From the NCBI RefSeq assembly GCF_001536285.1, contig NZ_FAOZ01000010.1:124001-188000 (forward strand): DNA of 64,000 nucleotides. The letters run 5' to 3'. This DNA comes from Parafrankia irregularis (GTDB lineage: Bacteria > Actinomycetota > Actinomycetes > Frankiales > Frankiaceae). The notes beneath the pieces are model-generated. The model made no database searches. It had not been told where the DNA came from and was given only the letters and a program-made list of their open reading frames with translations. Both the position numbers and the translations under genes were made by a program. Position 1 is the stretch's first letter. Each line of letters starts with the position of its first letter. Positions 4,855 to 32,605 of this stretch are shown one piece after another.

Positions 4855-5535
4855 ATGCCGGAACTACCGCACCCGAGGTTCTTCCCACTACTTCCCCGAA
4901 AGGCGCTGCCTGCCGTGCCGGCGAAATGGATGTTCCGATCACCAACGCTTCTCGCCACCCTGCTGGGAACCCTTGTCATTGCCACTCTGTCCGGCTGCGC
5001 CGGCACTTCCGGCCCAGCCGAGGAGGAATCCAGCCCACACACGACGTCAGCTCGGGCGACCGGGGCCCCGGAAGGTCAGCCCGGCGTCGTTCCGCAGCGG
5101 ACGCTGGATTTCTTTCGCGCGATGGAACGGCGCGAGACGGCGACCATGGAGGCGATGCTGGCGCCCGACGCCACCTGGCGGGTCGCGATGAGCTTCTCGG
5201 GTGATCGGGCGGACCAGTCGTACTTCGGCGACCGGGCGGCGGCCCTGGCCAACCTCCGGCAGATCTCCACCATGGTGAGCACGGTCCGATTCGTCGACAC
5301 CCGGGTGAGCGTCACCGGCGACGGGGCGACATCGTTCATGCAGGCCAACGGCGACTTCGTCACGGCCGCCGGAAAACCGTACCGGAACACGTATGTCTTC
5401 CGCCTCGACTGGCGAAACGGCCTGATCACCCAGGTGGAGGAATACACGAACCCGATCACGATCTGCGCGAGCTTCGGCCTGCCACTGTGCGTTCCCGATG
5501 ATTCCGGCGCCCAGCAGTCACCGGCCGCCGGCTGA
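4855..5535 (+). CDS. Lipoprotein with SnoaL/NTF2-like domain
   Basis: 226 residues from the first ATG. From Met26 (4930) there is a canonical lipoprotein signal: FRSPTLLATLLGTLVIA then LSGC, with Cys as lipid anchor, so the protein is extracytoplasmic and membrane-attached. The mature part has a single cone-shaped NTF2/SnoaL-like domain (LDFFRAMERRETATMEAMLA, then VRFVDTRVSVTGDGA and RLDWRNGLITQVEEYTNP). No catalytic residues can be assigned; such domains may bind ligands or act as cyclases or hydrolases. No good ribosome-binding site precedes either start. Its promoter overlaps two putative TetR operators, so it is probably induced by the ligand of the divergent regulator. Confidence 0.82.
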   Translation: MPELPHPRFFPLLPRKALPAVPAKWMFRSPTLLATLLGTLVIATLSGCAGTSGPAEEESSPHTTSARATGAPEGQPGVVPQRTLDFFRAMERRETATMEAMLAPDATWRVAMSFSGDRADQSYFGDRAAALANLRQISTMVSTVRFVDTRVSVTGDGATSFMQANGDFVTAAGKPYRNTYVFRLDWRNGLITQVEEYTNPITICASFGLPLCVPDDSGAQQSPAAG

Positions 5536-5560: not shown

Positions 5561-5608
5561 GAGAGTTGAGGATTGGTCGTTCCGACAACCGCAATCCTCG
5601 GCTCTTGC
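5561..5608 (-). repeat. Conserved intergenic palindromic element, copy 1
   Basis: Imperfect long hairpin with arms GAGAGTTGAGGATTGG and CCGCAATCCTCGGCTCTTGC. In the minus orientation it matches copies at about 23.1 and 31.1 kb, including the leader CTGCTGCCGAGCAAGA shared with copy 2. Arm differences from the other copies include G-T pairs. It lies between two convergent genes and may also serve as a terminator. Confidence 0.8.
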
Positions 5609-5765: not shown

Positions 5766-6560
5766 TCACCGACCTGCTCGACTGTGCTCGCGCCGTCGAA
5801 CCTCCGAGGCCGCAACGTTCCCTGCTCCGGCGCTGATCCGGGCCGTGGCCGCGGCGACCAGGGCGTCAAGCCGTCTCGCATGGGCCCCCCGCCAGAACAC
5901 GCGCCCGCACCCGGCGCAGCGCGTGAACCGCGTCGCGGTCCGCCGGGTGCCCGGCGCCAGCTCGTCCAGCACCTGCTCCCTGGTCGCCGGCCGCAGCCAC
6001 GCGCCGCAGGACAGGCAGCGGGTGAAGGGTGCCAACGGCGGCGCGAACCGTGTCAGGACGTCACGCACCTGCTCGTCGGGCAGCTGGCCGCGCACGTAGG
6101 CGCCCCGTGGGAGAGCCCGCCGCAGCAGGAGGCCACGGTCGCGTGTCAGCAGTACCCGGTGCTCGCGCCGGGCCCACGCGACCAGGTCGTCATCCGCCGC
6201 GTCGTTGCGGTAGGCCACGTCCAGTCCGAGCAGGCGCAGCCGGCGCGCCAGCGCACCGAGGTGGACGTCGAGGAGGAACCGCGGGTCGACCAGAAGCTGC
6301 GGACGTGACAGCGGCATGACCCGCACGACCTCGTCGGGAGCAGGACGGTAGGACGGGACGAGAGCCGTCCCGTCGCACCGCCGCAAGGCGCCGACCTCGG
6401 TCAGCGGCACGCCGACGGACTGTACGACGTGCCCGAGCGACGCATGCGGATCGGCGGGCAGGCCGCGGATCACGCCGTGCACGCAGGCCCGGCGCCCGGA
6501 CGCGTACAGCAGCGGACGCAGCTCCTCGGCGACTTCCAGCACGACCACGACGCAAGGCAT
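5766..6560 (-). CDS. Mut7-C RNase-domain protein with ubiquitin-like N-terminus
   Basis: 264 residues. The C-terminal half is a Mut7-C (DUF82) PIN-like domain: FLLDVHLGALARRLRLLGLD, then LLTRDRGLL carrying conserved acidic residues, and two Cys pairs (CLSCG and CAGCG) forming a zinc ribbon. The N-terminal part resembles the Mut7-C ubiquitin-like domain (VVQSVGVPLTEVG). Family members are thought to be nucleases acting on RNA; the substrate is unproved. It lies 22 bp downstream of a TetR gene on the same strand, so it may be co-transcribed. The start at 6560 is the longest available and lacks a strong ribosome-binding site. Confidence 0.85.
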   Translation of the reverse strand: MPCVVVVLEVAEELRPLLYASGRRACVHGVIRGLPADPHASLGHVVQSVGVPLTEVGALRRCDGTALVPSYRPAPDEVVRVMPLSRPQLLVDPRFLLDVHLGALARRLRLLGLDVAYRNDAADDDLVAWARREHRVLLTRDRGLLLRRALPRGAYVRGQLPDEQVRDVLTRFAPPLAPFTRCLSCGAWLRPATREQVLDELAPGTRRTATRFTRCAGCGRVFWRGAHARRLDALVAAATARISAGAGNVAASEVRRREHSRAGR

Positions 6561-11230: not shown

Positions 11231-12100
11231 TCAGCCGGCGGAAGCGTACGGATTGCGCAGGGTCATCGGCGTGTGGGCGACGTCCAGCGCCGGCTGCGGG
11301 AAGCGGGCGCCAGCCGTGTAGTAGCGGGCCCGGGTGCGGCCGACCGGCTGCAGGACCTGGGCGGTGGTGAGGTCACGCAGGTCGCGTTGCGCCTGCTGCA
11401 GGCTCAGGCCTTCGGCGTGCTCGTAGCGCGCGCGGCGGACCCGTCCGGTCATGGCCACGTCGTGCAGGGCGGTCACGACCCTCTCGCCCAGCCCGGTGCT
11501 CACGGCGAACGCGGCGAGTGCCTCCCCCACCCGCCCGGAGCGGTCGAGTCGCCCCGCAACGGTCTGGGCCTGCTGGTGGTAAGCGGTCAGGCTGAACCGG
11601 ATCCAGCTGGAGACATCCTGGTCGGGAAGGTAGGTCGGGCCCCGGTCGGCGAGCTCGCGGTAGTACTCCCAGGTGTTGCCGGGGCGGCCGAGCCACGCCT
11701 CGATGGAGGAGAACTCCGGGGCGAGGACACCTTCACGGGCGATCATGAGCGTCTGCAGCGAGCGGGACATCCGGCCGTTCCCGTCGGCCCACGGGTGGAT
11801 GGATACCAGGTGCAGGTGGGCCATGGCCGCCCGCACCAGCGGGTGGGTGCCGTCGTCGGCGTTGAGCCAGTCGACGAGTTCCCGCATCAGGGTGGGGACG
11901 GCGTCGGCGCCCGGGGCGGTGTAGGCCGCGATGCTGGGATCGCGGGCGTCGGTGACGTAGACGGGGGCCCGGCGCCACTGCCCCGCCGGCCTGCGCACCG
12001 CGTGGCGGTGCCCCTGCAGCATCCAGTGCAGCGCGTTGAGCAGGCCCTTGCTGTAGGTGAAGTCCTCAGCGTCGTGGAGCGTCTGGATGTAGGTCATCAT
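11231..12100 (-). CDS. Fic-domain protein, apparently 5'-truncated
   Basis: 289 residues. The Fic motif HPWADGNGRMSR (conserved HPFxxGNGR) follows MAHLHLVSI, and a C-terminal winged-helix-like segment (EHAEGLSLQQAQRDLRDLTT) follows the catalytic core. Fic proteins usually transfer AMP to a target hydroxyl, or act as toxins or regulators. The same frame continues upstream of ATG 12100 for about 30 codons of protein-like sequence (GDTFRALGLPVGPNREETLA) before an in-frame TGA, with no ATG, GTG or TTG start in it. This suggests that the original N-terminal region has been lost. No inhibitory helix or antitoxin gene was recognised nearby. Confidence 0.75.
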   Translation of the reverse strand: MMTYIQTLHDAEDFTYSKGLLNALHWMLQGHRHAVRRPAGQWRRAPVYVTDARDPSIAAYTAPGADAVPTLMRELVDWLNADDGTHPLVRAAMAHLHLVSIHPWADGNGRMSRSLQTLMIAREGVLAPEFSSIEAWLGRPGNTWEYYRELADRGPTYLPDQDVSSWIRFSLTAYHQQAQTVAGRLDRSGRVGEALAAFAVSTGLGERVVTALHDVAMTGRVRRARYEHAEGLSLQQAQRDLRDLTTAQVLQPVGRTRARYYTAGARFPQPALDVAHTPMTLRNPYASAG

Positions 12101-12183
12101 CCGCTGGTACGCGAGGGTCTCCTCGCGGTTTGGGCCGACAGGGAGGCCGAGCGCCCGGAAGGTGTCGCCACCGGGGAGGGCTC

Positions 12184-12217
12184 AGCGGGTTTCGCCAGCC
12201 CTCCCGGGCGACCCGCT
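12184..12217 (-). terminator. Possible stem-loop terminator of the ferredoxin-Rieske operon
   Basis: AGCGGGT and ACCCGCT arms with a 20-base GC-rich loop begin at the stop codon of the last operon gene. Short stem and no T-run, so modest evidence. Confidence 0.4.
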
Positions 12218-12536
12218 AGGCGTCCTGCCCGATGGCGCCGAGCTGGCTGAAGAAGCGAACGGTCGGAGGCGGGGTCAGTTCCACTCCGACCGGACGTGAC
12301 ATCGCCCCGGAGCCCAGCGCCTGGCCCAGCGCGGCCTTGGCCGCCTCGACATCACCGTCGATCTCGTAGATCGCGATGAAGGTGTCACCGCCGAGGGCCG
12401 CGAGCCGCCGGGCGGCGACGAAGCCGTCCACCTTGAGCATCTCGGGCAGGTGCGTGTTGTCGTACCAGTCGTGGTAGGCCGCGGCCTCCTGCGGCGAGGC
12501 GGGACGCGATTCGACGATCAGAACACCGCTTGCCAT
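12216..12536 (-). CDS. Small EthD/DUF4286-like protein
   Basis: 106 residues. The sequence YHDWYDNTHLPEMLKVDGFV is characteristic of dimeric alpha-beta barrel proteins of the EthD/DUF4286 type; TFIAIYEIDGD is a later core strand. Such proteins may be small hydroxylase accessory or cyclase/decarboxylase-like enzymes, but no function can be assigned. It is the last gene of the minus-strand operon starting with ferredoxin, 29 bp after the amidohydrolase. ATG 12536. Confidence 0.8.
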   Translation of the reverse strand: MASGVLIVESRPASPQEAAAYHDWYDNTHLPEMLKVDGFVAARRLAALGGDTFIAIYEIDGDVEAAKAALGQALGSGAMSRPVGVELTPPPTVRFFSQLGAIGQDA

Positions 12537-22124: not shown

Positions 22125-22985
22125 TCACTCTGACGGATCGGTTCCCGGTGCGGCAGCCGCGTCGGCCGCGTGGCTGGTGGCGGGGGCGTGGCTGGTGGCG
22201 GGGGCGCTGGCTCGGCTCATCGCGAGCACCGCGTCCCGGCGGGGCATCGCGCCGAACGGCGAACCGCCGGTCGGGTCCGCGCTCCCGAAGATCCAGGTCG
22301 GTCCGTCGGCGAGGTGGTCGAGCGCCTCCCGGGCGACGTCGGAAGGGTCGGCGGCGTCCCCGTACGGCTCGCCCTTGGCGTCGAACACCCGGCGCATCGA
22401 CGGTGTGTCGGTCTTGCCGAGCACCAGGCCCAGCACGGCGACCCCACTGGAACGCCATTCGGCCCACAGCGCCTCCGCCAGGACGAGGTCGAACGCCTTG
22501 GTGGCACCGTAGGCGGCGAGCGTGGCGCCACCCACCCAGGCCGCTCCCGACGTCACGAGAACCACGCCGCCCCGCCCGCGCGCCACCATCGGCCCGCCGA
22601 AGCGGTAGGCCGCCTCGAGCACGCTGTCGCAGTTTCGGTGGATCAGCTGCAGGTGGGTGTCGAGATCCTTGTCGAGGAACGGGGTGCTGAAGTCGTCGCC
22701 GCCGGCGTTGTACACGAAGAGCCCGACCTCGAGTTCGGCGGTCGCGCTCGCGAGCTCCGCCAGCGCGCCCGGGGCACTGAGATCAAGCGCGACCGCGCGG
22801 ACCTCGACGCCGTGCTTCGCCCGGATCTCCTCGGCGAACGCCTCCAGCACGGGAACCCGCCGCGCCACCAGCACGACGTTCAGGCCCCTGGCGGCCATCT
22901 CGTGAGCGAACGCCGCCCCGACTCCGTCAGATCCGCCGGCCACGATCCCCCACGGCCCGTACTCATTCGTCATCGCGGTATCCAT
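22125..22985 (-). CDS. SDR-family NAD(P)-dependent oxidoreductase
   Basis: 286 residues. IVAGGSDGVGAAFAHEMA binding loop, VYNAGG, LVTSGAA (Ser) and YGATKAFD (Tyr/Lys). Resembles 17-beta-hydroxysteroid/ketoacyl reductases of the DltE-like group. The C-terminus has an 18-bp DNA repeat giving SHAPATSHAPATSHA, a probable flexible tail. ATG 22985 with GGGAGA site. Possible role is reduction or oxidation of a hydroxyacyl intermediate. Preceded upstream by repeat element copy 2. Confidence 0.88.
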   Translation of the reverse strand: MDTAMTNEYGPWGIVAGGSDGVGAAFAHEMAARGLNVVLVARRVPVLEAFAEEIRAKHGVEVRAVALDLSAPGALAELASATAELEVGLFVYNAGGDDFSTPFLDKDLDTHLQLIHRNCDSVLEAAYRFGGPMVARGRGGVVLVTSGAAWVGGATLAAYGATKAFDLVLAEALWAEWRSSGVAVLGLVLGKTDTPSMRRVFDAKGEPYGDAADPSDVAREALDHLADGPTWIFGSADPTGGSPFGAMPRRDAVLAMSRASAPATSHAPATSHAADAAAAPGTDPSE

Positions 22986-23026
22986 GCTCGTCTCCCGGGG
23001 TATTCGAGTCGTCCAGTGCCAGCGAT

Positions 23027-23047
23027 CAGTGATCAGTGATCAGTGAG
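23027..23047. repeat. Three 7-bp repeats of ATCAGTG
   Basis: GATCAGTGATCAGTGATCAG at the left boundary of intergenic element copy 2, upstream of the SDR gene. Function not evident. Confidence 0.7.
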
Positions 23048-23049
23048 CC

Positions 23050-23203
23050 CGTCGCGGAATCCCGGGCTTCGGGCTTCGACTGCTGCCGAGCAAGAATTGA
23101 GGATTTCGGTCGTTCCGACAGCCGAAATCCTCAACTCTTGCGGATTAGCAAGCGACTCTACGCCGCATTTGTACTATTAGCGGAAATTGCCGATGCTGCG
23201 CGG
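23050..23203 (+). repeat. Conserved intergenic palindromic element, copy 2
   Basis: Central hairpin at 23090-23141: arms GCAAGAATTGAGGATTTC and GAAATCCTCAACTCTTGC with one mismatch, extended by two GC pairs at the loop end, and a 12-base loop. Flanks match copy 3: left CGTCGCGGAATCCCGGGC and right ATTGCCGATGCTGCG. The element is intergenic, upstream of a minus-strand SDR gene. Confidence 0.85.
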
Positions 23204-23291
23204 CGACGCGGGATCCCCGGTGGGCCGCCGCGCGGCGGGTGGGAACGCGGACCGGCGGGTCCCAGTCCCAGACGGTTCTCAGGGTCTGCTG

Positions 23292-24143
23292 TCAGGCCCC
23301 GGCCTCAGGTCCGCTCCCCCGCCCGAGCACCTTCTCCGCGACCACCTCCGACGCGAGGACCGTGCCGATGATCCCGAGCTCCGCGCCCGCGTTGCGGGCG
23401 ACCTCGCGCACCACCGTGACGTCCTTGAGCATGAGGTCGCCGATGCGGCCCGCGACGGCGTCGACCGAGCCGCCACCGGCGACGACGCCAAGGCCACGGC
23501 TGGCACCACTGCCGTGTTGGAGGGCAGCCAGAATCGCCGACTCCTCGATCCCGAGGGAACCCGCGAGACGCACCGCGTCGATCGCGAGCCCCACCTGCGC
23601 CACGAACAGCGCGTTGTTCACCAGCTTCACCCGCTGGCCGTTACCGACCGGCCCGACGGACATGACCGGTGACGCGTACGTGCCGAGCACCGGACGCATC
23701 CGGTCCAGCAGGGCCTCGTCGCCACCCACCCACAGCGTCAGCCGGCCCGCGGCGATGTCGTGCGGGCCGCCCGAGAGCGCGGCGTCGAGTACCCCGATCC
23801 CCCGGCCTGATCCCGCCGCGCCCGCCGCGGCGAGCAGGTGTGCGGTCCGCGGATCGGACGTCGTGTGCTGGACGAGCGTCGCGCCCGGCCTCATGGCCGC
23901 GATGGCGCCGTCCGGGCCGAGGCACGCCGAGCGGACCTGATCGTCGGTCAGGACGACGACGAACACCGCGTCGGCGTCGCGGACCGTGGCCGACACCGTG
24001 TCGGCAACGGTCAGCCCGTCGGCCTGCGCCGCCGCCCGGGCCTGCGGGCTGCGCACCAGGACGGTCACCTCGTGGCCCGCGGCCATCAGCCGGTCGACCA
24101 TCGGCCGGCCCATGCGACCCGCGCCGATGAACCCGATCTTCAT
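23292..24143 (-). CDS. Beta-hydroxyacid dehydrogenase (3-hydroxyisobutyrate dehydrogenase-like)
   Basis: 283 residues. N-terminal Rossmann motif KIGFIGAGRMGRPMVDRL, substrate-binding DAALSGGPHDIAAGRL, and catalytic Lys in QRVKLVNNALF. These enzymes oxidise 3-hydroxyacids or reduce small aldehydes with NAD(P). ATG 24143. Downstream of the NTF2-like gene on the same strand, 46 bp gap. A poly-Gly-containing loop (VVAGGGSVDAV) is not unusual in the family. Confidence 0.9.
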   Translation of the reverse strand: MKIGFIGAGRMGRPMVDRLMAAGHEVTVLVRSPQARAAAQADGLTVADTVSATVRDADAVFVVVLTDDQVRSACLGPDGAIAAMRPGATLVQHTTSDPRTAHLLAAAGAAGSGRGIGVLDAALSGGPHDIAAGRLTLWVGGDEALLDRMRPVLGTYASPVMSVGPVGNGQRVKLVNNALFVAQVGLAIDAVRLAGSLGIEESAILAALQHGSGASRGLGVVAGGGSVDAVAGRIGDLMLKDVTVVREVARNAGAELGIIGTVLASEVVAEKVLGRGSGPEAGA

Positions 24144-28562: not shown

Positions 28563-29769
28563 CGAGCACGCGATTCAGGCGATCCACGCGGACCTGCGCA
28601 CACGGGTTCGGACGTTCCTCGCGGACCATGACCCGGCAGGCGTGCGCACCGACGCGGACCGGCTGGAGTTCCTGCGTGCCCGGTACGACGCCGGCCTGGC
28701 CTGGGTCGCGTACCCCGTCGGCCACGGCGGCCTGGGACTGGGGCAGTCGTACCAGTCCGAGGTGGACGCGAGCTTCGCCGCCGCCGGCGCGCCCGACAAC
28801 CGGCCGCACGCCAACGGCATCGGGCTCGGCATGGCCGCGCCCACGATCGCCGCCTTCGGGACCCAGGAGCAGAAGCGGCGGTACCTGCGCCCGTTGTGGA
28901 CCGGCGAGGAGATCTGGTGCCAGCTGTTCAGCGAGCCGGGCGCCGGTTCGGACCTCGCCAATGTCGCCACCCGCGCCGTACGTGACGGCGACACCTGGAT
29001 CGTCAACGGGCAGAAGGTGTGGACGTCGGGTGCCCATCATTCCGACCTGGCGATCCTCGTCGCCCGCACCGACATCGACCTGCCCAAGCACCGCGGGCTG
29101 ACCTACTTCCTGTGCGACATGCACGATCCGGGGGTCGACGTGCGCCCGCTGCGGCAGATCACCGGCGAGGCGGAGTTCAACGAGGTGTTCCTCACCGACG
29201 TCCGCATCCCGGACAGCCAGCGCCTCGGGGCCGTCGGGGACGGCTGGCGGGTGGCCACCGGCACGCTCAACAACGAGCGCGTCTCGATCGGCGGCAAGGC
29301 GACCGTGCGCGAGGCCGGAATGATCGGAGTCGTCGCGCAGACCTGGCGGGCGCGCCCCGAGCTGCGTACACCCGAGCTGCACGACCGTCTGATGAAGCTC
29401 TGGGTCGAGGCGGAGGTCGCCCGGCTGACCGGTCGGCGGCTGGCGCAGAAGCTGGCCCAGGGGCAGCCCGGCCCGGAAGGCTCCGCCATCAAGCTGGCTT
29501 TCGCCCGCATCAACCAGCAGCTGTCCGGCCTCGAGCTTGAACTGCTCGGGGAGGAAGGCCTGCGTTACTCCGACTGGACGATGGTCCGACCGGAGCGGGT
29601 CGAGTTCACCGCCCGCGACGCCGGCTACCGGTACCTGCGTGCCAAGGGGAACTCGATCGAGGGCGGCACCTCGGAGATCCTGCGCAACATCCTGGCCGAG
29701 CGGGTGCTCGGCCTGCCCGGTGAGCCACGCGTCGACAAGGACGTTCCCTGGAAGGACACAGCGCGTTGA
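28555..29769 (+). CDS. Acyl-CoA dehydrogenase 2
   Basis: 404 residues. QLFSEPGAGSDLANV, QKVWTSGA and C-terminal GNSIEGGTSEILRN with the predicted catalytic Glu/Gly segment are classical. RVSIGG and WVEAEVARLTGRRLAQ are midsection markers. Overlaps gene 1 by eight bases and gene 3 by TTGA, so all three are coupled. It is a plausible catalytic partner for the third enzyme in an alpha-beta type heteromer, as known for steroid-degrading FadE pairs (inference). Confidence 0.93.
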   Translation: MADEHAIQAIHADLRTRVRTFLADHDPAGVRTDADRLEFLRARYDAGLAWVAYPVGHGGLGLGQSYQSEVDASFAAAGAPDNRPHANGIGLGMAAPTIAAFGTQEQKRRYLRPLWTGEEIWCQLFSEPGAGSDLANVATRAVRDGDTWIVNGQKVWTSGAHHSDLAILVARTDIDLPKHRGLTYFLCDMHDPGVDVRPLRQITGEAEFNEVFLTDVRIPDSQRLGAVGDGWRVATGTLNNERVSIGGKATVREAGMIGVVAQTWRARPELRTPELHDRLMKLWVEAEVARLTGRRLAQKLAQGQPGPEGSAIKLAFARINQQLSGLELELLGEEGLRYSDWTMVRPERVEFTARDAGYRYLRAKGNSIEGGTSEILRNILAERVLGLPGEPRVDKDVPWKDTAR

Positions 29770-30956
29770 CAGATCTCGATCTGCTCTACACCGAGGTCGA
29801 GGACGACCTGCGCTCGACCGTGCGCGACCTGCTCGCGGATCGTTGCCCGCCGGCGGCGGTCACCGCCGTGTACGACGGCGACCGCACGCTGGTCGACCCG
29901 CTCTGGCAGGCCCTGGCGGTCGACCTCGGCCTGGCAGGGCTGCTCGTTCCCGAGGACCGGGGCGGCGCCGGGGCCTCGGCACGGGAGGCCGCCGTCGTGC
30001 TGGAGGAGCTCGGCCGTGTGGCGGCGCCGGTCCCCTTCCTGACCAGCGCGGTCGTCGCGACGACGGTGCTGCTGGCGGCCGGTTCCGAACTCGCGGCCAG
30101 GTTCACGGCGTCGCTCGCGGCCGGTGAGCGGACCGCGGCGCTGACCGTGCCGTTCACGGCGGCGCCGTTCACTGCCGCGCTGTCCGCGGCGGCGTCGGGC
30201 GCGCAGGCGCGGGGCGTGGAGGCGCGGGGCGCGCGGCTGGCCACTGTCGACGTTGTCAGGCCGCACACGCTCACCGGCACGGTGACCACCGTGGCCGGTG
30301 CACTGGAGGCGGACCTGCTGCTGGTACCGGCGTCCCGGGATGGACGTGTCGTGCTCTACGCCGTCGACGCCGCCGCGGTGGATCGGCCGCCCGTGGTCTC
30401 GTTCGACATGACCCGCCAGCTTGCCGATGTGCACCTGGTGGACGTCGAGGCCACGCCCGTGCTCGACGACCCCGCCGACCCTGGCGCCGCGGAGCGGGCG
30501 ATTCGCGGCGGGCTGACCGCGGGCGCCGCCCTGCTCGCCTCCGAGCAGCTCGGCGTTGCGAGCTGGTGCCTGGACGAGACCGTTAAGTACCTGAAGACAC
30601 GTCGCCAGTTCGGCCGGGTGGTCGGTGGCTTCCAGGCGCTCAAGCACAGGCTGGCCGACCTCTACGCCGGCGTCGAGTCCGCGGCCGCGGCCGCCCGCTA
30701 CGCCGCCGCGGCACTGGCGTCCGGCGACCCGGATCTGGCTGTGGCCACCAGCGTCGCGGCGGCGTTCTGCGGCGACCTCGCGGTCGTCGCCGCGGAGGAG
30801 GCGGTGCAGCTGCACGGCGGCATCGGCATGACCTGGGAGTACCCGGCGCACCTTTACCTGAAGAAGGCCAAGGCCGACCAGATCGCGTTCGGCACCCCGG
30901 GTGCCCATCGCGCCCTGCTGGCATCGCTGGTGCACCTGCCGGAGGCTCCGCGCTAG
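29766..30956 (+). CDS. Acyl-CoA dehydrogenase 3, possibly non-catalytic partner
   Basis: 396 residues. A divergent FadE: ASEQLGVASWCLDETVKYLK and TRRQFGRVVGGFQALKHRLAD are conserved, and the C-terminus has QLHGGIGMTWEYPAHLYLKK, but the usual catalytic Glu segment after the FAD helix is not evident and the middle region is Ala-rich and variable. Similar short-EGG-lacking proteins occur as structural halves of alpha2-beta2 acyl-CoA dehydrogenases in steroid catabolism. Start TTG 29766 overlaps the preceding stop (TTGA). A terminator is not obvious; repeat element copy 3 follows. Confidence 0.88.
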   Translation: MTDLDLLYTEVEDDLRSTVRDLLADRCPPAAVTAVYDGDRTLVDPLWQALAVDLGLAGLLVPEDRGGAGASAREAAVVLEELGRVAAPVPFLTSAVVATTVLLAAGSELAARFTASLAAGERTAALTVPFTAAPFTAALSAAASGAQARGVEARGARLATVDVVRPHTLTGTVTTVAGALEADLLLVPASRDGRVVLYAVDAAAVDRPPVVSFDMTRQLADVHLVDVEATPVLDDPADPGAAERAIRGGLTAGAALLASEQLGVASWCLDETVKYLKTRRQFGRVVGGFQALKHRLADLYAGVESAAAAARYAAAALASGDPDLAVATSVAAAFCGDLAVVAAEEAVQLHGGIGMTWEYPAHLYLKKAKADQIAFGTPGAHRALLASLVHLPEAPR

Positions 30957-31020
30957 CGCCCGGTGCGCCGTCGGGGCCCAGCCCGTCCGACGATCTGGAG
31001 ATGTTCGTCGCCCCGGCAGC

Positions 31021-31208
31021 CGTCGCAGAATCCCGAGCTTTGGGCTTCCACCACCACCGCCGTTGTCCACCATCGCCGCCGTTGTCGCTGAGCAAGAAGC
31101 GAGGATATTGGCTGCGGCAACAACCGAAATCCTCACTTCTTGCGAGCCGTCAAGCCGGCTCCAGGCCCCACTTGCCCCTATTAAGGTTGAATTGCCGATG
31201 CTTTGCGG
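31021..31208 (+). repeat. Conserved intergenic palindromic element, copy 3
   Basis: Hairpin at 31092-31143: arms GCAAGAAGCGAGGATATTGG and CCGAAATCCTCACTTCTTGC around a 12-base loop, with two mismatches and one G-T pair. Left flank CGTCGCAGAATCCCGAGC and right flank ATTGCCGATGCTTTG match copy 2 although the intervening spacers differ in length. Located between convergent genes. Confidence 0.85.
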
Positions 31209-31249
31209 TGCCCGGTGGCAGCCGACCACCCCTCGGGTAGCGCGGGCTG

Positions 31250-32605
31250 TCAGGCGATCTGGGGGCTCGGGGAGTAGAGCCGGGTCACCGCGTCGTGGAA
31301 CTCCGCGGACTTCTCGGCGTAGTTCGCGTACCGGTCGTAGCTCGGCGCGCCCGGCGAGAGAATCACGTGGCTGCCCAGCGAACCCAGGCGGGCCGCCAGG
31401 GCCACCGCTTCCCGCAGCCCGCGGGCTGGGTGGACCCGATCCGGGTGGCGCTCGCCGAACTCCGCGACCACCGCGAGGCCGTTCGAGGGAATCGCGATGA
31501 CGTCCACCCTGCGGGGGCTGCCCAGCAGGAAGTCGTTGAGCGGCTGGTAGGAGATGCCGCGGTCCTGACCGCCGACGATGAGGATCGTGTGCTCGGCGTC
31601 GAACGCCTCGACCGCGGCGACGACGCTGTTCGCGGTGGTGGACAACGTGTCGTCGACCCAGACGAGCCCGCCGTCGCGGCTGATCGTCTCCAGCCGGTGT
31701 GGGAGGGGCGCATGCCCGGCGAGGCCTCGGTGCACGGCGTCCGGCGACAGCGGTGTTTCGAGGGCCGCGCCGGCGGCCAGCACCGCCAGTCGCACGCTGG
31801 AGACCAGATGACCGGCCCGCAGGTGCGGCGGCAGCTCGCGCACCGTCAGCAGGCGGGTGCCGTCACGATCCACGATGTCTTCGCCGGACGTGGCGGCCAA
31901 CAGGGTGGGCAGCCCGCGCACCCGCGGCTCGACCGAGACCAGCTTCGCCAGGGTCGGCTCGTCGCAGACCAGCACCGCGGCGCCGTGCACCGCGATCCGC
32001 GCCTTGTCCTGCCAGTACCGCTCCAGTGAGCCGTGCCAGGGAAGGTGCTCCTCGTAGAGGTTGGTGACGACGGCCACCCGCGGCGACCGGGTGATCCAGA
32101 AGCACTGGTAGCTCGACAGCTCCGCGACGACCGCGGCCGGGCCCGGCGGCACGGCCAGCAGCGGCAGGCCGATGTTCCCGGCGAGCACGGCGCCCGCGTC
32201 GGTGCCGGTCGGCTGGCTCAGGATGGCGTGGATGAGGGACGCCGTGGTGCTCTTGCCCTTGGTGCCGGTGACCCCGACCGCCCGCTCGGCCTCGGACTCG
32301 AGCCAGACCGCGGAGCCCGAGGTCAGGTGGATCTCCTTCGCCCGCAGCGTCTCCAGGAACGGGTGGGTCCTCGGTATCCCGGGGCTCACCACGACGAGGT
32401 CGCAGTCGAGCAGCCGCTCCAGGCTGCCGGCGCCCCAGTTGTACTCGACCCCGGGGAGAGTCTCGGCCACGTCCGCGGACGCCTCCCGCTCATCCACGAC
32501 GACCACCCCGGCGGGCGAAGCCGCGACGGCGCCGAGGACGGCGCGCCCCTCCAGGCCGAGACCCCAGATCCCGACGCGCCTGGTGGCGATCTCAGCCAAG
32601 CGCAT
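31250..32605 (-). CDS. murD2: MurD2-type UDP-MurNAc-L-Ala:L-Glu ligase
   Basis: 451 residues, Mur ligase. N-terminal Rossmann-like VGIWGLGLEGRAVLGAV, then the ATP P-loop GVTGTKGKSTTASLI, central VAELSSYQ and the LYEEHLPWHGS segment (LDHxxxHG position). C-terminal domain includes VDDTLSTTANSVVAA and LIVGGQDRGISYQPL. In Xanthomonas-type systems MurD2 adds L-Glu rather than D-Glu to UDP-MurNAc-L-Ala, and MurL then inverts the Glu. Start ATG 32605 lies inside the MurL end (14-bp overlap), a strong linkage. Acts in the cytoplasm. Specificity for L-Glu is inferred from the MurL pairing, not from residues. Confidence 0.88.
   Translation of the reverse strand: MRLAEIATRRVGIWGLGLEGRAVLGAVAASPAGVVVVDEREASADVAETLPGVEYNWGAGSLERLLDCDLVVVSPGIPRTHPFLETLRAKEIHLTSGSAVWLESEAERAVGVTGTKGKSTTASLIHAILSQPTGTDAGAVLAGNIGLPLLAVPPGPAAVVAELSSYQCFWITRSPRVAVVTNLYEEHLPWHGSLERYWQDKARIAVHGAAVLVCDEPTLAKLVSVEPRVRGLPTLLAATSGEDIVDRDGTRLLTVRELPPHLRAGHLVSSVRLAVLAAGAALETPLSPDAVHRGLAGHAPLPHRLETISRDGGLVWVDDTLSTTANSVVAAVEAFDAEHTILIVGGQDRGISYQPLNDFLLGSPRRVDVIAIPSNGLAVVAEFGERHPDRVHPARGLREAVALAARLGSLGSHVILSPGAPSYDRYANYAEKSAEFHDAVTRLYSPSPQIA

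Follow-up and report, generated by a model that had tools for sequence, protein, structure and literature searches.

A family of REP/BIME-like hairpin repeats in Parafrankia with a probable role at transcript 3' ends and as an IS110 landing site

Proteobacterial REPs sit behind genes and carry mismatches in their stems. ERIC, another unit found behind genes, is an intergenic palindromic element of about 130-180 bp, which forms an imperfect palindrome over its full length and shows a TA duplication. To our knowledge, descriptions of REP-type repeats, and of IS110 elements that target them, come almost entirely from Proteobacteria. REPs and BIMEs form mosaic arrays with regular spacing (PMC2817692), and the insertion of IS110-family elements into REPs is documented (PMC1525189; PMC11208160). 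Insertion at a single position of a repeated palindrome has been reported for the copies of ISPa11 (6/6), ISPpu9 (7/7), ISPpu10 (7/7), and ISRm19 (4/4) (PMC1525189), and IS621 uses a CT core when it inserts into REPs of E. coli (PMC11208160).

We analyzed a window of 64,000 nucleotides of the Parafrankia irregularis genome, in which three long-stemmed hairpins had been predicted from the sequence. All three were found at the predicted positions, the third one in inverse orientation, and all were intergenic according to a crude gene caller (Table 1). The arm pattern matched five times in the window, compared with 0.19 matches expected from shuffles. These hairpins appear to be a new case within the known REP-type class of repeats. 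Like REPs and BIMEs, they occur as many dispersed, mostly intergenic palindromes per genome, form mosaic clusters (arrays ~85-95 bp apart in Parafrankia), and are used as a specific target by an IS110 element, the last feature being shared rather than strictly defining. The Parafrankia palindromes differ from REPs in their longer arm (~24 bp), in the lack of a GTAG/GGTAG head, and in their host lineage, the Actinobacteria. They resemble ERIC in size class and in being palindromic, intergenic, and located behind genes; the two are set apart, by description only, in that the Parafrankia palindrome is confined to a 52-nt core whose two flanks differ from each other and the sequences are called unrelated. 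Taken together, the hairpins probably constitute a lineage-specific REP/BIME-like family that acts at transcript 3' ends and provides a landing site for an IS110-like element.

Table 1. Positions of the hairpin elements and adjoining genes in the 64-kb window.
Feature	Position	Strand	Remark
Copy 1, full element	~23045-23224		
Copy 1 hairpin, type A	23090..23141	+	Folding -32.6/-35.5 kcal/mol on the two strands
Copy 1 left flank module, GAGCCCGTCGCGGAATCCCGGGCTTCGGGC...CTGCTGCCGA	23045..23089	+	Common to dozens of copies
Copy 1 right flank module, GGATTAGCAAGCGACTC...GAAATTGCCGATGCTGCGCGGCGACGCGGGATCCCCGG	23142..23224	+	
Gene, 5' end toward copy 1	22125..22973	-	Crude gene caller
Gene, 3' end adjoining copy 1	23292..24143	-	Crude gene caller
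Copy 2, full element	~31018-31210		
Copy 2 hairpin, type A	31092..31143	+	Present at the orthologous site in sister species EUN1f
Copy 2 left flank module	31018..31091	+	
Copy 2 right flank module	31144..31210	+	
Gene, 3' end toward copy 2 (convergent)	29766..30956	+	Crude gene caller
Gene, 3' end toward copy 2 (convergent)	31250..32605	-	Crude gene caller
Copy 3 hairpin, inverse, without type-A right module	5561..5608	-	2-nt deletion vs sister species EUN1f
Gene ending shortly before copy 3 (convergent)	5122..5535	+	Crude gene caller
Gene, 3' end toward copy 3 (convergent)	5766..6560	-	Crude gene caller

The full element measures about 180 bp and consists of a hairpin of ~52 nt set between two conserved flank modules (consensus GAGCCCGTCGCGGAATCCCGAGCTTCGGGC...CTGCTGCCGA on the left and GGATTGCCAAGCGACTCTGCGCCCCTTTTGTCCCTATTGGNGTGAATTGCCGGCGC...GGGATCCCCGG on the right). 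Arms of about 20 bp around a 12-base loop had been proposed; the arms actually extend to ~24 bp and leave a loop of 4-6 nt, because the pairing runs inward past one C.A mismatch. This mismatch is located at one of two neighbouring near-tip pairs in most of the 78 oriented copies. The flanks noticed in two copies are real, and their modules are common to dozens of copies. Elements with both modules were classified as type A; those of a second type have no right module and form hairpin arrays spaced ~85-95 bp. Additionally, a half arm stopping at the hairpin tip precedes many type-A copies, as expected for mosaic elements. In many type-A copies, triplet runs (CTG/CCG) of variable length separate the left module from the hairpin (L020, L018, L050, L135), and GATCAGT is repeated three times in tandem at 23024-23046 of the window, immediately 5' of the left module of copy 1.

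The host genome (9.54 Mb in 82 contigs) contained 60 exact GAGGATT..AATCCTC palindromes and none of the reversed control pattern. A covariance model built from 41 copies identified at least 54 distinct full-length sites in this genome, and the density in random regions (4 sites in 400 kb) corresponds to ~95 per genome by extrapolation. The raw hit counts of the model, capped at 150 per genome, therefore include self-hits on the reverse strand. Parafrankia sp. EUN1f, like the host a soil bacterium and its close relative within the same genus, had ~96 full-length model sites among the matches listed and carries at least as many copies as the host, whereas the four other genomes of the genus (G002-G005) had 0-2 model sites each. 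The count of three copies in the original prediction thus stands for the window and falls far short of the genome, and its suggestion of a small non-autonomous repeat family agrees with the many genome-wide copies, their presence in the sister species, and their near absence elsewhere in the genus. This distribution is consistent with a family that may have spread in the common ancestor of the host and EUN1f, after its split from the other members of the genus. We found no description of such repeats in the covered literature on Frankia, Parafrankia, and Amycolatopsis, a coverage outside which most subscription journals lie.

Within ~90 kb of synteny between the host and EUN1f, the copies at 5561 and 31092 are common to both genomes. 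The copy at 23050 is absent from EUN1f, which, together with three other genomes, has a gene there instead, and one EUN1f copy in the syntenic region is absent from the host. At the site of this EUN1f-only copy, part of a gene of the window is missing. Comparison of C388:61164-61323 of EUN1f with positions 11862-12240 of the window revealed a putative Fic-like gene that is truncated in EUN1f, with a hairpin element at the deletion junction. At both one-species sites compared, the element has been exchanged for gene material, either a whole gene or a portion of one, and neither a clean empty site nor a readable target duplication, the latter having been proposed as a check, was found. Therefore, the mobility of the unit is inferred from copy number only, and the likely event at these sites is either movement or a recombination in which material was lost. 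A stretch of ~21 kb at C388:68230-89884 of EUN1f is also absent from the syntenic place in the host.

The arms of the hairpin are conserved as a paired structure. In alignment A1, 88.6% of the cells were paired, 37 cells were altered on both sides, and eight pairs showed two-sided changes. The covariation score of this alignment (0.166) was higher than those of all 500 shuffles (mean, 0.111) and of all slid versions (0.03-0.12); further copies and covarying arms, on which the prediction of a family depended, were thus both found. The comparison of orthologous sites is the test best protected from the relatedness of copies. In seven orthologous pairs between the host and EUN1f, stems had diverged by 7.9%, loops by 19.6%, and flanks of 80 nt by 27.1% (p=3e-14), the flank value being possibly inflated where these flanks align poorly, and compensated changes were present in two of the pairs (L166/L095 and L022/L194). 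Gene conversion between copies or template-switch repair could mimic such covariation and compensation.

The location of the elements, a bias that the original prediction had recommended checking, was assessed with gene ends from the crude gene caller, which may be misplaced. None of the 64 placed elements, some of which are orthologous copies counted once per species, was located inside a predicted gene. Convergent spacers accounted for 41% of element-bearing spacers vs 12% of the others (p=3e-7), and divergent spacers for 11% vs 29% (p=0.002). The median distance from an element to a gene 3' end was 53 nt, and the element was closer to the 3' end of the upstream gene in 28 of 31 tandem spacers. 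Based on this placement and the constraint on the arms, the element is predicted to act, probably, at transcript 3' ends; placement behind genes could also mirror only where insertion is tolerated.

Ten near-identical ends of one IS110-like element (TGACACGAAAAACTGACGTGAG...) break contigs of the host assembly (L225, L227-L235). Nine of the ten are preceded by a hairpin arm cut at one exact position (...ATCCTCANNTC/T, where the slash marks the cut), the insertion junction reading ...ATCCTCACTTC/TGACACG... and the intact arm ...ATCCTCACTTC/TTGC, and four of six diverged relics also abut a hairpin arm. This near-total use of a single site (9/10) is the same as that of ISPa11, ISPpu9, ISPpu10, ISRm19, and IS621, and the junction sequence would fit a CT core. 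On its opposite strand, this end codes for 86 C-terminal transposase residues. This fragment alone had no Pfam match; a relative in the host genome (76% DNA identity) matches Transposase_20 and DEDD_Tnp_IS110 (PF02371/PF01548). Compared with the REP-targeting IS110 elements, the Parafrankia element is known from the right end and these 86 residues, which are all that the assembly contains of it; the left end, the expected site of a guide RNA, was not found in the host assembly, and no guide RNA was seen there. If insertion is guide-directed, the target loop of the guide would pair with ATCCTCACTTCTTGC. In addition, larger decayed elements (L016, L027, L238-L245) lie beside the hairpins or are nested within them; they contain a related hairpin, GATCAAGGGATTTTGGTCGTTGTAACGACCAAAATCCCTTGATC, together with an IS110-like end that has diverged.

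Other explanations of the hairpins were weighed against these results. It is highly improbable that the element works on one strand as a structured non-coding RNA or in the manner of a riboswitch, even though the arms covary and the C.A mismatch near the tip is conserved in most oriented copies. The G-T pairs noticed in the arms do occur; in a structure-free alignment of the 78 oriented copies, however, G.U (117 cells) was about as frequent as A.C (143 cells), and therefore gives no pointer to constraint on one RNA strand. Moreover, the element takes no fixed orientation with respect to the adjoining gene (17 same, 14 opposite), and an Rfam search at the gathering score gave no match, so that the proposed RNA element receives no backing as a strand-specific structure. 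The suggestion of a terminator signal is supported indirectly by the location of the copies after gene 3' ends and by their excess in convergent spacers. These features, together with strong hairpins on both strands, would suit a dispersed bidirectional terminator kept by selection alone, with unrelated hairpins converging on one sequence. Nevertheless, the sequence 3' of the hairpin is CTTGCGG or CTTCGAG, not the U-tract that follows the hairpin of an intrinsic terminator, and the element is nearly missing from the other four Parafrankia genomes. The copies also share ~100 bp of non-hairpin flank, and pure convergence is therefore refuted; we regard this explanation as very unlikely.

The dispersed unit of ~180 bp with its conserved modules and the lineage-restricted expansion would also be compatible with a MITE of some IS, in which the hairpin is only a passive internal part. 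We consider this unlikely, as no terminal inverted repeats were seen in the copy alignment, in which the left and right ends differ, no autonomous parent was observed, and no target duplication was readable at the two one-species sites compared; besides, the hairpin is better conserved than the rest of the unit at orthologous sites, and hairpin-only arrays occur without the right module. That 9 of 10 IS copies touch a hairpin could alternatively mean that the palindromes are relic ends of the IS110-like element and not its target. However, EUN1f is equally rich in hairpins and yielded no match to the end of this IS, its own IS110 elements do not adjoin hairpins, and orthologous hairpins exist intact without the insertion, which leaves only a very slight probability for relic ends.

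Assignment of the family to RAYT-associated REPs in the strict sense was tried and rejected. A GTAG/GGTAG-like head beside the palindrome is absent from the consensus, neither of the two Y1 genes of the host genome is flanked on both sides by hairpins, and a Y1_Tnp search returned none in EUN1f. Palindromes of the same core design were found in Amycolatopsis (GGATTTGGGACGTTNAACGTCCCAAATCC and GGATTTTGGTGCGTTNAACGCACCAAAATCC; as many as 35 matches to the pattern in one genome), with no common flank modules seen. Since the searches selected the core, common descent of the Parafrankia and Amycolatopsis palindromes is a lead only. It is rather doubtful that both belong to one actinobacterial REP-like superfamily (core GGATTTTGG..CGTT / AACG..CCAAAATCC) with RAYT-free spread by an undescribed mobilising system. 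The high-copy palindromes of Amycolatopsis show covarying outer arms (L048, L057, L059, L060, L062, L115, and others).

As a REP/BIME-like family, the Parafrankia copies may have been mobilised by an enzyme provided in trans, and selection would have removed those that landed in genes and promoters. The retained palindromes may be kept for their folding at transcript ends from either side, which would shield 3' ends or aid the termination of convergent genes, and the IS110-like element would use the family as a landing site that recurs in the genome and does no harm. Here, a high-copy actinobacterial family has two carriers, in one of which no RAYT was detected, and this raises the question of what else spreads REP-type repeats. 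Additionally, the family and its own IS110-like occupant form a natural and independent set of targets for guide-RNA-directed recombinases, and close relatives without the family make its gain and function testable.
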